Source: a virus. Taken from it: DNA of 24,764 nucleotides. The position numbers were made by a program, and so were the translations under genes. The stretch spans positions 1-24,764 of the IMG/VR virus record IMGVR_UViG_3300035698_002680; one strand, given 5' to 3'. Below are positions 980 to 9,841 of the stretch, piece by piece; positions within the stretch are counted from its first letter, which is position 1, and the number at the start of each line of letters is the position of its first letter. Under the pieces are notes generated by a model. The model had not been told where the DNA came from. It did not search any database and was given only the letters and a program-made list of their open reading frames with translations.

Positions 980-1712
980 ATCAATTACGACGGACATTCG
1001 ATTCAGCATTGTTCCGGAATGGGTGTTGGATGCGCCGGTGTCGGATCGTGCGATTCGTGTCTACACAATTTTGGCGCGGTATGCGGACAACGATACGTTG
1101 CAGGCGTTCCCATCACGGTTGTTGTTATCGGAACGGTGTCGGTGTTCGGTGAAATCCGTCGATCGTGCCGTTGAAGAACTGATGACGGTTGGGGCGATTG
1201 ACAAACAACGTCGCGTCAAAGACGGTCACTATCAATCATCGTTATATACGGTGAAGCGGGTGGCGGCGTCACCCGTGACGCTAGGCGGCGTCACCCGTGA
1301 CACTAGGGCGGCGTCACCCGTGACGCATAGAACTAGAACCATTGAACTAGAACCACATAATGAGAACGACATCATTCAACACTTCAACACATTTTGGGAT
1401 TTGTTTCCCCGGAAACTTGGAAAGGGCGAAGCGAAACAGGCGTTTGCAAAGGCGGTGAACACCCACGGACATGATGTGGTCCTGGATGGGTTGCGACGTT
1501 TTGTTGATGATCCCAATTTGCCACCCAAACAATTCATTCCACGCCCGGCGACCTGGTTGAATCAAGAACGTTGGGACGATGAACCATATCCGGAAGAAGC
1601 AAAAAAACCGTGGGAGCGTTTAGCGATCACACCCGGCACGCGGGATTGGGTGGAACAAATGCACAACATTGGGGAGCATTGGGAATGTCGACCCGGTGAA
1701 TTTGGACACTAG
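972..1712 (+). CDS. Replication initiator / replisome organiser with winged helix
   Basis: The 246-residue protein has two parts. Residues about 5-90 look like a winged-helix DNA-binding domain (RAIRVYTILARYAD, then SVKSVDRAVEELMTVGAI as recognition and following helices). Residues about 130-205 carry the phage initiator tail pattern FWDLFPRKLGKGEAKQAF ... PATWLNQERW. Between them, residues about 97-118 are encoded by the tandem DNA repeats at 1262-1328, an arrangement like the lambda O gene, where the origin sits inside the initiator gene. It would bind the origin and recruit the host helicase; that job is inferred from the family. Start ATG 972 overlaps the previous gene by 8 bases. The ribosome site is weak, suggesting translational coupling. 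Confidence 0.75.
   Translation: MTESITTDIRFSIVPEWVLDAPVSDRAIRVYTILARYADNDTLQAFPSRLLLSERCRCSVKSVDRAVEELMTVGAIDKQRRVKDGHYQSSLYTVKRVAASPVTLGGVTRDTRAASPVTHRTRTIELEPHNENDIIQHFNTFWDLFPRKLGKGEAKQAFAKAVNTHGHDVVLDGLRRFVDDPNLPPKQFIPRPATWLNQERWDDEPYPEEAKKPWERLAITPGTRDWVEQMHNIGEHWECRPGEFGH
1262..1328 (+). repeat. Three iteron-like repeats inside the initiator gene (candidate origin)
   Basis: Three 22-base copies start at 1262, 1284 and 1307, each beginning GGCGGCGTCACCCGTGAC. The core GTCAC-CC-GTGAC is an inverted repeat. The step from copy 2 to copy 3 is 23 bases. Copies 1 and 3 are read as AASPVT while copy 2 is read in another frame as GGVTRDT, so the DNA, not the peptide, is what is conserved. This is what a protein-binding origin would look like. 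Confidence 0.6.
1330..1354 (+). repeat. Short direct repeat next to the iterons
   Basis: GAACTAGAACC occurs twice, at 1330-1340 and 1344-1354, a 14-base period, directly after the three larger repeats. It is followed by an AT-richer stretch that could be an unwinding element. Function is inferred only from position. Confidence 0.4.
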
Positions 1713-1723
1713 GAAGGAATGTC

Positions 1724-2350
1724 ATGGGTTTGGAAGGGTATGAAGTTCATCCGATTGGGTATTCGGAAGCGGTCGACATGATTGTCAAAAATCATTATTT
1801 GCATCGACGTGGACCGGCATCACATTCGTTTGGGTTGTTCAACGAACACGGGACGATTGTCGGTTGCATCACATACGGAACACCGGCGTCGAATAGTTTG
1901 TGTATTGGGTTGGCGGGTGCGGACGAAGCGCCACATGTGATCGAACTGACACGGTTGTGGATTGCGGACGTGACACCGAAAAATGCGGAATCGTTTTTGA
2001 TTGGTCGATCGTTGCGCATGTTGCCGGATGAAAAAAACATTGTGGTTTCGTTTGCAGAAATTCAAGCGGGTCATCGTGGGACGGTATATCAAGCGACGAA
2101 TTGGATATATACCGGGATGTCCGATCGTCATTCGCAATGGTCATTGGATGGGGAACCGACAAACAAACATTCGCGCCACTTGTGGGATCAGTATGGCGGG
2201 ATTGAAAACGCGAAGCGTGTGTTGGGTGATCGAATGGTGAAATCGGAACGTCCACGGAAGCATCGTTATGTGATGATCCGGGGTTCGCGTCGTCGTCGAA
2301 ACGAATTGATTTCGAAACTTCGGTATGCGCCACAGTCTTACCCGATTTGA
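1724..2350 (+). CDS. Mom-like DNA modification protein (GNAT-related), copy 1
   Basis: The 208-residue protein matches the pattern of phage Mu Mom relatives: NHYLHRRGP near residues 23-31, SFGLF, GCITYGTPAS, then ELTRLWIADVTPKNAESFLIG, then VVSFAEI and GTVYQATNWIYTG. Mom uses an acetyltransferase-like fold to place a carbamoyl-type group on adenine, protecting phage DNA from restriction. The C-terminal third is basic and contains RGSRRRRNE, suitable for DNA contact. The core is shared with the protein at 7126-7878, so the phage has two paralogues. ATG 1724 follows AGGAAGGAATGTC. The substrate and the modified base cannot be read from sequence. Confidence 0.72.
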   Translation: MGLEGYEVHPIGYSEAVDMIVKNHYLHRRGPASHSFGLFNEHGTIVGCITYGTPASNSLCIGLAGADEAPHVIELTRLWIADVTPKNAESFLIGRSLRMLPDEKNIVVSFAEIQAGHRGTVYQATNWIYTGMSDRHSQWSLDGEPTNKHSRHLWDQYGGIENAKRVLGDRMVKSERPRKHRYVMIRGSRRRRNELISKLRYAPQSYPI

Positions 2351-6524: not shown

Positions 6525-7136
6525 ATGAAGAAAATGACGGTGGAACGTTTGTCGATTGCGGTGTTGACGCCGGACCCGGAAAATGCGCGAACACATGATG
6601 ATGCGAATGTGCGGGTGATCGCGGGAAGCCTTGAACAGTTCGGTCAACGCAAACCGATTGTGATCACGGCGGACAATGTAATCGTCGCGGGTAATGGTAC
6701 GGTGCGGGCGGCGCAGTCGTTGGGTTGGTCGGACATTGATGCGGTGCGTGTTCCCGCGGATTGGTCGGACATGAAAGTCAAAGCGTTTGCGCTTGCGGAT
6801 AACCGGACGGCGGAAATGGCGGAATGGAACGTCACGGTTTTGGACGAACAATTACAGGCGTTGACGTTTGACGGTTTTGAAATTTCCGCGTTTGGTTTTG
6901 ATTCTCAGGAATTGCCCGCGGAATCAGAGTGGTCGGACTTGAACGATGCGGTCAAGGATCGTAGCGGGACGCAACAAATGACGTTCGTCGTGTCCGATGA
7001 TCAGGTGGAAACGATACAACAGGCGTTGAGAGTGTCAAAGTCTTTGGGGGAATTCGATCAATCGGAAAATGTGAACGGAAACGGAAACGCGTTGGCGCGG
7101 GTTTGCGAAATGTTTTTGGGCAATCATGGGGGCTAA
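6525..7136 (+). CDS. ParB/sulfiredoxin-fold nuclease-like protein
   Basis: The 203-residue protein has a ParB N-terminal domain in residues about 8-105: LTPDPENARTHDDANVRVIA, LEQFGQRKPIVI, then IVAGNGTVRAAQSLGW and AFALADNRTAE. The GNGTVRAA box corresponds to the CTP/nucleotide-binding GERR-type motif. The rest is a less conserved tail that is probably phage-specific. In phages this domain often sits with DNA modification genes just before the terminase, as here. The start overlaps no other gene and follows the TAGGCT box by six bases. The 3' end overlaps the Mom-like gene by 11 bases. Function, nuclease or modification partner, is not settled by sequence. Confidence 0.78.
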   Translation: MKKMTVERLSIAVLTPDPENARTHDDANVRVIAGSLEQFGQRKPIVITADNVIVAGNGTVRAAQSLGWSDIDAVRVPADWSDMKVKAFALADNRTAEMAEWNVTVLDEQLQALTFDGFEISAFGFDSQELPAESEWSDLNDAVKDRSGTQQMTFVVSDDQVETIQQALRVSKSLGEFDQSENVNGNGNALARVCEMFLGNHGG

Positions 7137-7878
7137 AGATTTAGTGTTGCGACGGATTTCGTCAACGGATGCAAACGCGGTTGTTCGCAAATATCATTAC
7201 AGCGGAAAAGTTGTTCCGAATTCCCAAATCCACATTGGCGTTTTCTATATGGGCAAACTGGAAGGGGCGATGCAGTTTGGTCCGTCAATCGACAAACGCC
7301 GGGTTTCCATGCTGGTAGAAGGAACTGGATGGAATCAGTTTGTGGAATTGAACCGGATGGCATTCAGTCCCGCCTTACCGAAAAATAGTGAATCGCGTGC
7401 AATTGCAGTTTCGATGCGGTTGTTGAAAAAACACGCACCCAATTTGAAATGGTGTGTTTCGTTTGCAGACGCAACGCAATGTGGCGACGGGACTATATAC
7501 CGGGCATCGGGATTTTTGTTGACGCAAATCAAACCCAATAAGCAAATGCTTTTGTGGAAGGGGAAAGTGATTGCAAAAAAAACGTTGGACAATGAAAACT
7601 TCCCCCGGATAGGTGGGAAATACTATTCGCGTCATTTGATTGAAACTGGGGCAGCGGTTCCGTTGCAGGGTTTCCAACTTCGCTATGTCTATTTTTTGGA
7701 TCAATCATGGCGGGATCGTTTGAAATCAGACATTATTCCATTTGATGAAATTGAAAAAGTCGGTGCAACAATGTATCGTGGGAATCGCCCTGGAAGCATT
7801 GCTAGCGATGCGTCTGACTTCCGGTCAGAAGAAGGAAGTGCAAATCTTACCTCAGGGCTCGAAACGCGAGAGCAATAA
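7126..7878 (+). CDS. Mom-like DNA modification protein (GNAT-related), copy 2
   Basis: The 250-residue protein shares the core layout of the protein at 1724-2350: KYHYSGKVVPNSQ (about 22-34), GVFYMGKLEGAMQFG, ELNRMAFSPALPKNSESRAI, then CVSFADATQCGDGTIYRASGF. The PKN-ES and SFA ... GT-Y-A blocks line up between the two. This copy has an added C-terminal part, including a YSRHLIETGAA segment and a serine-rich tail SIASDASDFRSEEGS. It is placed between the ParB-like gene and TerS, overlapping the first by 11 bases and the second by one. It probably modifies phage DNA, possibly with the ParB-like protein as targeting partner; this is inference. Confidence 0.7.
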   Translation: MGAKDLVLRRISSTDANAVVRKYHYSGKVVPNSQIHIGVFYMGKLEGAMQFGPSIDKRRVSMLVEGTGWNQFVELNRMAFSPALPKNSESRAIAVSMRLLKKHAPNLKWCVSFADATQCGDGTIYRASGFLLTQIKPNKQMLLWKGKVIAKKTLDNENFPRIGGKYYSRHLIETGAAVPLQGFQLRYVYFLDQSWRDRLKSDIIPFDEIEKVGATMYRGNRPGSIASDASDFRSEEGSANLTSGLETREQ

Positions 7879-8324
7879 TGCCAGCCGGACGACCGTCGAA
7901 ACCTATTGAACAGAAGCGGGCGCTAGGCAATCCGGGACGTCGCCCGTTGCCCGATGAAAACGCGGTGCAATTGATTCCCGCGATTGATGCGGTTCCGGAA
8001 CCGTCACGTCCGTTGCTGAAGTATGGTCGCGAATTGTGGGATCGCGTTTGGGGGATGGGTGTGACATGGATTTCACCGAACAGCGATTTCGAAATTTTGT
8101 TGATGACGTGCGAATTGGTCGATGAACGTTGGAACTTACGCATTCAGGTGATGCAATCGGGTGATCCGAAACAGCGTCGAGGGTTGCGTGAATTGGATCG
8201 ACAAATTGTTTCGAACTTGTCGTTGTTGGGTTTCACACCGTCGGATCGTTCACGGTTGGGTGTTGCGGAAGTCAAGGCGCGTTCAAAGTTGGAAGAATTG
8301 ATGTCGCGACGGGATGAATGGTGA
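7878..8324 (+). CDS. terS: Terminase small subunit, P27 type
   Basis: The 148-residue protein opens with GRPSKPIEQKRALGNPGRRPL, the hallmark start of P27-family small terminases. It is followed by a helical body and a C-terminal helix GVAEVKARSKLEELMSRR that likely makes oligomer contacts. It would recognise the packaging site and regulate the large subunit. ATG 7878 overlaps the stop of the Mom-like gene by one base (TAATG). The end overlaps TerL. Length is normal for the family. Confidence 0.85.
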   Translation: MPAGRPSKPIEQKRALGNPGRRPLPDENAVQLIPAIDAVPEPSRPLLKYGRELWDRVWGMGVTWISPNSDFEILLMTCELVDERWNLRIQVMQSGDPKQRRGLRELDRQIVSNLSLLGFTPSDRSRLGVAEVKARSKLEELMSRRDEW

Positions 8325-9841
8325 TGGAAAAGATTGATGGTTGGGCACCGCAATGGTTGACGAAGGCGACGGAAGAATCATTGAATTCGAACCGTGCGGA
8401 TATGGCAATCAAGTTCATTGAAGACTTTGGTGTGATCACAAAAGATTCGGTGTCCGGCAAAACGGGCGAACGTCTGGTGTTGCGTGATTGGCAGAAAGAA
8501 TTGGTCCGTCATATTTATGCACAAGAATCGGGCGGGTACAAGTACAAACTGGCTTTGTGTGGTTTGCCACGTAAGAACGGAAAAAGTGCGTTAGCGTCCC
8601 ATCTGGCGCTATTTGACACCATATTTGGACCGGGTGGCGGGGAAACGTATTCGGTAGCGGCGACACGTGATCAGGCACGAATCGTTTTTGGGGAAGCGAA
8701 AAAAATTATTTCCGCGGATGAAGAATTATCGGCGCTTGCGAAACTGTATCGGGACGCCATTGAAATTCCCGCAACGGGTTCCGTCTATCGGGTTTTGTCC
8801 GCAGAAGCGGGTGCCGCCGAAGGCTTGAATAGCACCGCCGTGTGGATCGACGAATTGCACGCACAACCCAATCGGCGCATGTTCGATGTCATGCAATTGT
8901 CGATGGCGGCGCGTGGAAACAAAGCGCACATGGTTGCAATCACAACCGCGGGTGTGAAGTCGGATTCGTTAGGGCATGATTCAATTTGTTTCGATCTGTA
9001 TCAGTACGGAAAAAAAGTTGTTCGTGGTGAAATGGATGATCCGAATTTCATGTTGGCGTGGTGGGAATCGGATGGCGATCACAGACTGCCGGAAACGTGG
9101 AAGGAAGCAAACCCCGGTTTTGCGGATTTGAATGACGAAGCGGATTTCGAAGCGGCGGTCCGTCGCACACCGGAACCGGAATTCCGGACCAAACGTTTGA
9201 ACCAATTTGTGTCGTCTGCAATGTCATGGTTGCCGGTCGGTGCGTGGGATGAATGTCAAACGGAAATGTCGATCACACCGGACGATGAAATCATTTTAGG
9301 ATTCGATGGTTCTTTTTCTGGGGACTGTACCGTCGTGGTTGCGGCGACGGTTGCGAAGGATGGTTCCCCGGTACGCGTGGAATTGGTGAAGGCTTGGGAA
9401 AAAAATTTGGAACAAGACGATGATGATTGGCGTGTGGATATTGCAGACGTGGAACAAACAATCATCAACTATTGTCAAACCCATCCGAAGGTTTTGGAAA
9501 TCGCGTGTGACCCATTCCGGTGGCAGCGTTCGATGCAGGTGTTGGAAGAACGTGGATTGCCGATTGTAGAATATCCGTCTACTTCCCCGCGAAGAATGGT
9601 GGGTGCTTGCGCCAAATTTTTTGACATGACGATGGACAAAGAAATTCAACACAATGGTGATCCCACGATTGCCCGGCATTTAGAAAACGCGGTTGTCAAA
9701 AACGACAATGTTGGTCCCCGCATTGTGAAGGAATCGCGAAATAGTCCCCGCAAAATTGACGCAGCGGTTGCCGTTGTGATAGCAGTGGACCGCGCCACAG
9801 TCGCTAGAATGGAAGAAGTTGTCCCGCAATTTTTCGGATAG
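8318..9841 (+). CDS. terL: Terminase large subunit
   Basis: The 507-residue protein has an N-terminal ATPase with Walker A GLPRKNGKS (82-90), Walker B AVWIDE (174-179) and a coupling motif ITTAG further on, then a nuclease domain opening ILGFDGSFSGD near residue 328 and later acidic sites such as ACDPFRW. It is the motor that pumps DNA into the head and cuts it. ATG 8318 or ATG 8324 could be the start; the latter overlaps the TerS stop as TGATG, the junction style used repeatedly here. The gene contains no GAG or CTC trinucleotide in either strand. Confidence 0.93.
   Translation: MVMEKIDGWAPQWLTKATEESLNSNRADMAIKFIEDFGVITKDSVSGKTGERLVLRDWQKELVRHIYAQESGGYKYKLALCGLPRKNGKSALASHLALFDTIFGPGGGETYSVAATRDQARIVFGEAKKIISADEELSALAKLYRDAIEIPATGSVYRVLSAEAGAAEGLNSTAVWIDELHAQPNRRMFDVMQLSMAARGNKAHMVAITTAGVKSDSLGHDSICFDLYQYGKKVVRGEMDDPNFMLAWWESDGDHRLPETWKEANPGFADLNDEADFEAAVRRTPEPEFRTKRLNQFVSSAMSWLPVGAWDECQTEMSITPDDEIILGFDGSFSGDCTVVVAATVAKDGSPVRVELVKAWEKNLEQDDDDWRVDIADVEQTIINYCQTHPKVLEIACDPFRWQRSMQVLEERGLPIVEYPSTSPRRMVGACAKFFDMTMDKEIQHNGDPTIARHLENAVVKNDNVGPRIVKESRNSPRKIDAAVAVVIAVDRATVARMEEVVPQFFG

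Follow-up and report, generated by a model that had tools for sequence, protein, structure and literature searches.

A candidate phage replication origin, with iterons and a 14-mer array, inside the gene of its own initiator

We analysed a stretch of viral DNA of 24,764 nucleotides, called the window throughout, in which a gene on the plus strand (972-1712) encodes a protein of 246 residues. The first-pass annotation had taken this gene for a replication initiator, and profile searches agree: the phrog_270 "replication initiation protein" profile covers residues 8-213, including both domains of the protein (E 2.3e-35), Pfam HTH_36 matches with E 4e-7, and 72 divergent relatives, described below, could be collected. 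Weak matches to "replication initiation O-like" profiles (phrog_678, E 2e-5; phrog_391, E 4e-5) fall mainly in the N-terminal half. A sequence search of solved structures gave no meaningful match for the initiator. The AlphaFold2 model, built from an input of the window and of viral and genome loci only, with two phage-database records left out, has a mean pLDDT of 84 and contains a winged-helix DNA-binding domain at residues 16-94 (1017-1253), with pLDDT above 90 over most of its length and a recognition helix at about residues 57-70. The top Foldseek matches against the PDB (4pql, 5kbj, 4pt7 and 4pta) are N-terminal domains of plasmid RepA initiators, one of them in a Rep-DNA complex; the E values (7e-4 for 4pql, 1e-3 for 5kbj) and a TM-score of about 0.5 by target indicate a similar fold and are not proof of family membership.

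The winged-helix domain is followed by a linker predicted to be disordered (residues 101-126, 1272-1349, pLDDT below 50) and, from residue 128, by a helical domain (1353-1592) carrying the motif FxxFWxxYPRKxGK...TWLNQERWDDE. This C-terminal domain matches phrog_9327, annotated as a primosomal protein, and phrog_9474, and we propose it as the contact with the replisome. The protein ends in a conserved tail, RxWVxxMHxxGEHxECxxGEFG(C/H), at 1641-1709, which was found in 30 of the 72 relatives and may bind a helicase or a metal. In the window a histidine replaces the final cysteine of this motif, as though one metal ligand had been swapped for another.

Repeat finding confirmed the three 22-base copies with an inverted core, spaced 22 and 23 bases and followed by a 14-base repeat, that had been noticed at first reading. 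The copies, which we call iterons, lie on the plus strand at 1262-1283, 1284-1305 and 1307-1328, with 100, 95 and 91% identity to the first. The core GTCAC-CC-GTGAC is exact at 1268-1279, 1290-1301 (GTCACCCGTGAC in iteron 2) and 1313-1324, and the dyad extends to GCGTCAC-CC-GTGACGC in iterons 1 (1266-1281) and 3 (1311-1326). The position first given to the repeats, in the linker between the DNA-binding and C-terminal domains, also holds in the structural model, whose disordered residues 101-126 are encoded by the iterons together with the first part of the 14-mer array. The start of the region, 1262, stands as well, whereas its end has to be moved from 1354 to about 1373, where the array terminates. 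This array (1332-1373, plus strand) consists of ACTAGAACCATTGA (1332-1345), ACTAGAACCACATA (1346-1359) and a degenerate third unit, ATGAGAACGACATC (1360-1373). A+T makes up 62% of 1329-1373 and 28% of the iterons; a value of only 62% for the 14-mers counts against reading them as an unwinding element of an origin.

To weigh these repeats against the coding sequence, we re-drew synonymous codons for the same peptide. The 22-nucleotide repeat score of 21.5 compares with a best value of 14.5 among the re-draws (0 of 5000 as high), and the 14-nucleotide score was likewise reached by 0 of 5000, so the repeats are neither chance nor imposed by the protein sequence. In the window as a whole, the linker repeat is the strongest tandem signal of its period. 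The middle copy is indeed read in another frame (GGVTRDT, against AASPVT from copies 1 and 3), but the conclusion first drawn from this, that selection must act on the DNA, does not follow, since the repeats would look just like this after a recent tandem duplication; it is the comparison of relatives that supplies the argument.

Relatives were gathered by protein searches and by a DNA-only pattern search, which yielded 72 two-domain initiators with less than 85% identity. Each linker was compared with its synonymous re-draws for repeats at lags of 18-30 (P<0.01), with equal-length segments of the two domains as controls. Of the 72 linkers, 55 had significant tandem repeats, compared with 1 of 144 control segments, and in 45 of the 55 the lag was 22 or 23, neither of which is a multiple of the codon. 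The genes fetched by protein searches gave the same picture when taken alone (31 of 46 linkers, 1 of 92 control segments, lags mostly 22 and 23). About a quarter of the 72 showed no significant linker repeat in this test. The repeats themselves differ from one relative to another (GTCACCAGTGAC, TACTGACA..GTCAGTA, GGGACAAAAATGTCCC, GCGACAAAAACGACCC and others), and the exact iteron of the window is absent from the relatives except for the near-identical L001. In cultured phages, linker repeats of Arthrobacter phage Kuleana (gene 46) and of Prairie reach P<0.01, the Kuleana linker having GGGGTGCAC about every 22 nucleotides and then GAACCGTCCTT; the initiators of psageK9 and BrutonGaster (read by eye) and of phiPsal1 (repeat finder, period 15) also have linker repeats of their own.

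Across 41 relatives aligned at the first 14-mer, dyad symmetry has maxima at -57.5, -34.5 and -12.5 from it, with spacings of 23 and 22, and mean complementarity at -12.5, -34.5 and -57.5 was 0.56, 0.52 and 0.48 against a shuffle maximum of 0.345. Two extra peaks lie midway, at -46 and -23.5, and all five exceed every shuffle. The dyad centres of the window itself are at -58.5, -36.5 and -13.5. In these alignments, then, the repeats keep a fixed distance from the 14-mer. In four relatives (L008, L009, L146 and L154) the iterons appear reversed relative to the 14-mers (GACCCCGCGTCAC against GGGGTxGTCAC), with the orientation of the 14-mers unchanged.

The absence of the exact iterons from relatives looks at first like a lack of conservation, and is explained by their co-variation with the DNA-binding domain. 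A search for the same repeats in relatives with other linkers, suggested by the first-pass annotation, found the arrangement kept and the sequence following that domain. In 47 relatives, the k-mers of the iteron stretch were more similar the more alike the DNA-binding domains were (Spearman 0.444), and identity of the C-terminal domain showed no correlation (-0.006); partial correlations were 0.447 (P 0.0005) for the DNA-binding domain given the C-terminal domain and 0.060 (P 0.19) for the C-terminal domain, and the recognition helix added signal beyond the rest of its domain (0.323, P 0.0005). Individual pairs behave as natural swaps. The window and L102 are 74% identical in the helix-turn-helix (HTH) domain and 91% in the recognition helix, with iterons 0.57 alike, and only 44% identical in the C-terminal domain, while L012 and L004 have 97% identity in the C-terminal domain, 30% in the HTH and iterons 0.08 alike. 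Similarly, L142 and L131 have the C-terminal domain in common and not the HTH and iterons, and L142 and L144 show the reverse. In L004 and L007 the C-terminal domain is 94% and the HTH 76% identical, with the helix at 27% and the iterons at 0.06. Physical linkage of the HTH to the adjacent linker DNA could account for part of the co-variation; we argue that binding specificity also contributes, because of the helix-specific signal and the L004/L007 case.

These comparisons bear on three other explanations of the iterons. Functionless slippage, as in a minisatellite, would suit copies 91-100% alike in a disordered linker that tolerates change, but it is hardly credible given relatives with unrelated repeats at the same place, in the same 22/23 spacing and register, that track the DNA-binding domain, and given the conserved codons of the 14-mer described below. 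We consider it just as improbable that the region is a parS-like partition or packaging site: a ParB_N-type protein is encoded at 6525-7136, yet this protein has similarity to phage methyltransferase-associated proteins as well, the repeat sequence tracks the DNA-binding domain of the initiator itself, and the exact core has no other site in the window than the linker. Operators through which the winged-helix protein would control its own transcription, with no origin involved, are very unlikely too. Winged-helix proteins often bind dyads and many of the PDB matches are repressors, but the sites lie 290 bp inside the gene, away from a promoter position, the profile assigns the gene to replication initiators, and an operator leaves no role for a 14-mer array at fixed distance.

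The 14-mers carry a constraint of their own. A DNA-only pattern for the 14-mer pair, AACTANAACCANNGAACTAGAACC, matched 64 times among 2.9 million viral contigs, and all 64 matches fall inside open reading frames that fit the initiator profile at E 1e-10 or better, in the same frame each time and with repeats directly upstream. In 34 protein-fetched genes encoding TxTxELEP at this place, the codons ACT, ACC, GAA, CTA, GAA and CCA are nearly invariant; CTA was used in 31 of 34 against a frequency of 0.144 elsewhere in the same genes, and CCA in 34 of 34 against 0.189, counts that are not independent since the genes are mutually related. This codon choice points to constraint on the synonymous sites of the 14-mer. 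In more distant relatives its place is taken by other arrays, AACC-rich and of period 12-15. Repeats of period 12-16 adjoining the C-terminal domain reach P<0.01 in 38 of 72 relatives and P<0.05 in 47, 46 of them with lag 14 or 15, and AACC-type words at the place of the 14-mer number 149 against 63.7 expected.

In chimera pairs, the change in DNA identity comes at the 14-mers; these are themselves 92-100% identical even though both flanks are unrelated. This coincidence of breakpoint and repeat would fit 14-mers kept mainly as a recombination joint for exchanging initiator halves rather than as an unwinding element, with the iterons still acting as origin binding sites. We regard this as rather unlikely, as the AACC-rich arrays of distant relatives are too different to serve a shared joint, and plasmid RK2 cannot do without the direct repeats of its unwinding element (PMC4081077). 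A possibility that we advance tentatively is that the array is both things at once: a sequence-specific strand-loading element (ACTAGAACCACTGA, or distantly AACC every 12-15 bp), read by something that stays the same when iterons and DNA-binding domain are exchanged, for instance a host protein or a conserved segment of the initiator, and a joint where initiator halves are swapped between phages, which would give a plug-in origin with interchangeable specificity.

Taken together, we consider it very probable that positions 1262-1373 are a phage replication origin of the lambda-O/RepA type within its own initiator gene. This reading, made from sequence, is well supported by the comparison of relatives, and the candidate origin of the first-pass annotation has accordingly gained the initiator profile, linker repeats beyond protein constraint and co-variation with the DNA-binding domain as support. 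The winged-helix domain would bind the three dyad iterons, probably as one dimer each, 22-23 bp apart; such binding is strongly indicated, because the repeats co-vary with that domain. The complex would then strain and open the adjoining 14-mer array as an unwinding element, presenting a single strand, and the C-terminal domain and tail would recruit the host's DnaB-type helicase, either by direct contact or with the help of a loader. We infer opening and recruitment by analogy with lambda O (PMC7466680), SPP1 gp38 (PMC6316719), pSK41 RepA (PMC5703833) and TrfA of RK2 (PMC4081077). The part of the protein encoded by the origin is a predicted flexible linker, which would allow the DNA to evolve in its role of binding site. 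It counts against this reading that, of the window proteins scanned, none could be recognised as a helicase or a loader. GC skew is uninformative on the origin, being positive almost throughout this 24.8-kb linear fragment with its mostly plus-strand genes.

Origins inside initiator genes and separable specificity of initiator halves are textbook knowledge. The likeness in layout to lambda O and its origin, proposed at first reading, holds: in lambdoid and Stx phages, imperfect inverted-repeat iterons and then an unwinding tract lie midway along the initiator gene (PMC7466680). The profile relation is weak, however (the phrog_678 and phrog_391 matches), the lambda tract is AT-rich without the 14-mers seen here, and lambda has a separate loader gene, P, whereas the gene following the initiator in the window (1724-2350) is Mom-like. 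RepA_N plasmid initiators (pSK41, pSK1 and pTZ2162) share with the window protein a winged-helix N-terminal domain and a separable C-terminal domain, and have four Rep boxes centrally within rep, in the segment that codes for a dispensable linker, as in pSK41 (PMC5703833); in PLE RepA, semi-palindromic direct repeats serve as iterons (PMC7145576). The C-terminal domain of the window protein nevertheless belongs to another family, Pfam RepA_N (PF06970) did not match this protein and was absent among the 25 families listed for 59 relatives, and the papers on these initiators do not describe a 14-mer array (PMC5703833, PMC7145576). SPP1 also has direct repeats and an AT-rich unwinding element (oriL) within the gene for its initiator, gp38 (PMC6316719), but differs in a second origin, oriR, and in its own loader gp39 and helicase gp40. 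At oriV of RK2, iterons and 13-mer direct repeats in the unwinding element are all required, and TrfA binds the latter single-stranded (PMC4081077); TrfA is another type of initiator, and the RK2 system does not include an in-gene origin.

The RepO of Pontimonas phage phiPsal1 is 61% identical to the window protein over 74 residues of the C-terminal domain, and its linker (L267:4107-4235) has the same layout, with TTCCACTGTGGA dyads and then TAAGACCAA repeats. It differs in the period of both arrays (about 15-16), in another N-terminal domain and in the tail motif, which lies on the next, separate small ORF; this ORF weakly matches helicase-loader profiles (phrog_2289, E 0.011; Pfam G39P, E 0.23). 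The phiPsal1 paper does not discuss replication (PMC6106888).

What is new here is the initiator family and how widely it extends, together with a strict register of 22/23 and the persistence of the 14-mer across swaps, the 14-mer hinge being the unusual part; a search of the open-access literature found no description of such a family or 14-mer arrangement. The family offers dozens of divergent natural pairs of initiator DNA-binding domain and putative iterons, for which the natural domain swaps are internal controls; this makes a recognition code for winged-helix proteins of this family directly testable. It also permits origins to be predicted from sequence alone in many phages that are uncultivated and in some that are in culture, actinobacteriophages among them. 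In mycobacteriophages, RepA origins have been placed within or beside repA and repeats were not found (PMC7157519); the layout described here suggests where they might be sought. Named phages among L251-L266 (BrutonGaster, psageK9, Azospirillum phage Cd and Gsput1) have, in the linkers of their related initiators, different tandem arrays with purine- or AC-rich repeats after them, and these too are candidate origins.

Elsewhere in the window, the large terminase (8318-9841) is 67% identical to that of phiPsal1, on which we base what is only a guess at an aquatic Microbacteriaceae-type host; a scan of cellular genomes found no close prophage (best identity 35%). Two Mom-like DNA modification proteins are encoded at 1724-2350 and 7126-7878 (PF25680, E 2e-40 and 6e-54). 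Finally, three imperfect copies around GTATATACACGGA, spaced 23-24, lie at 157-226 upstream of the first early gene and beside TTGACA, and are candidates for operators or the promoter of the early operon.
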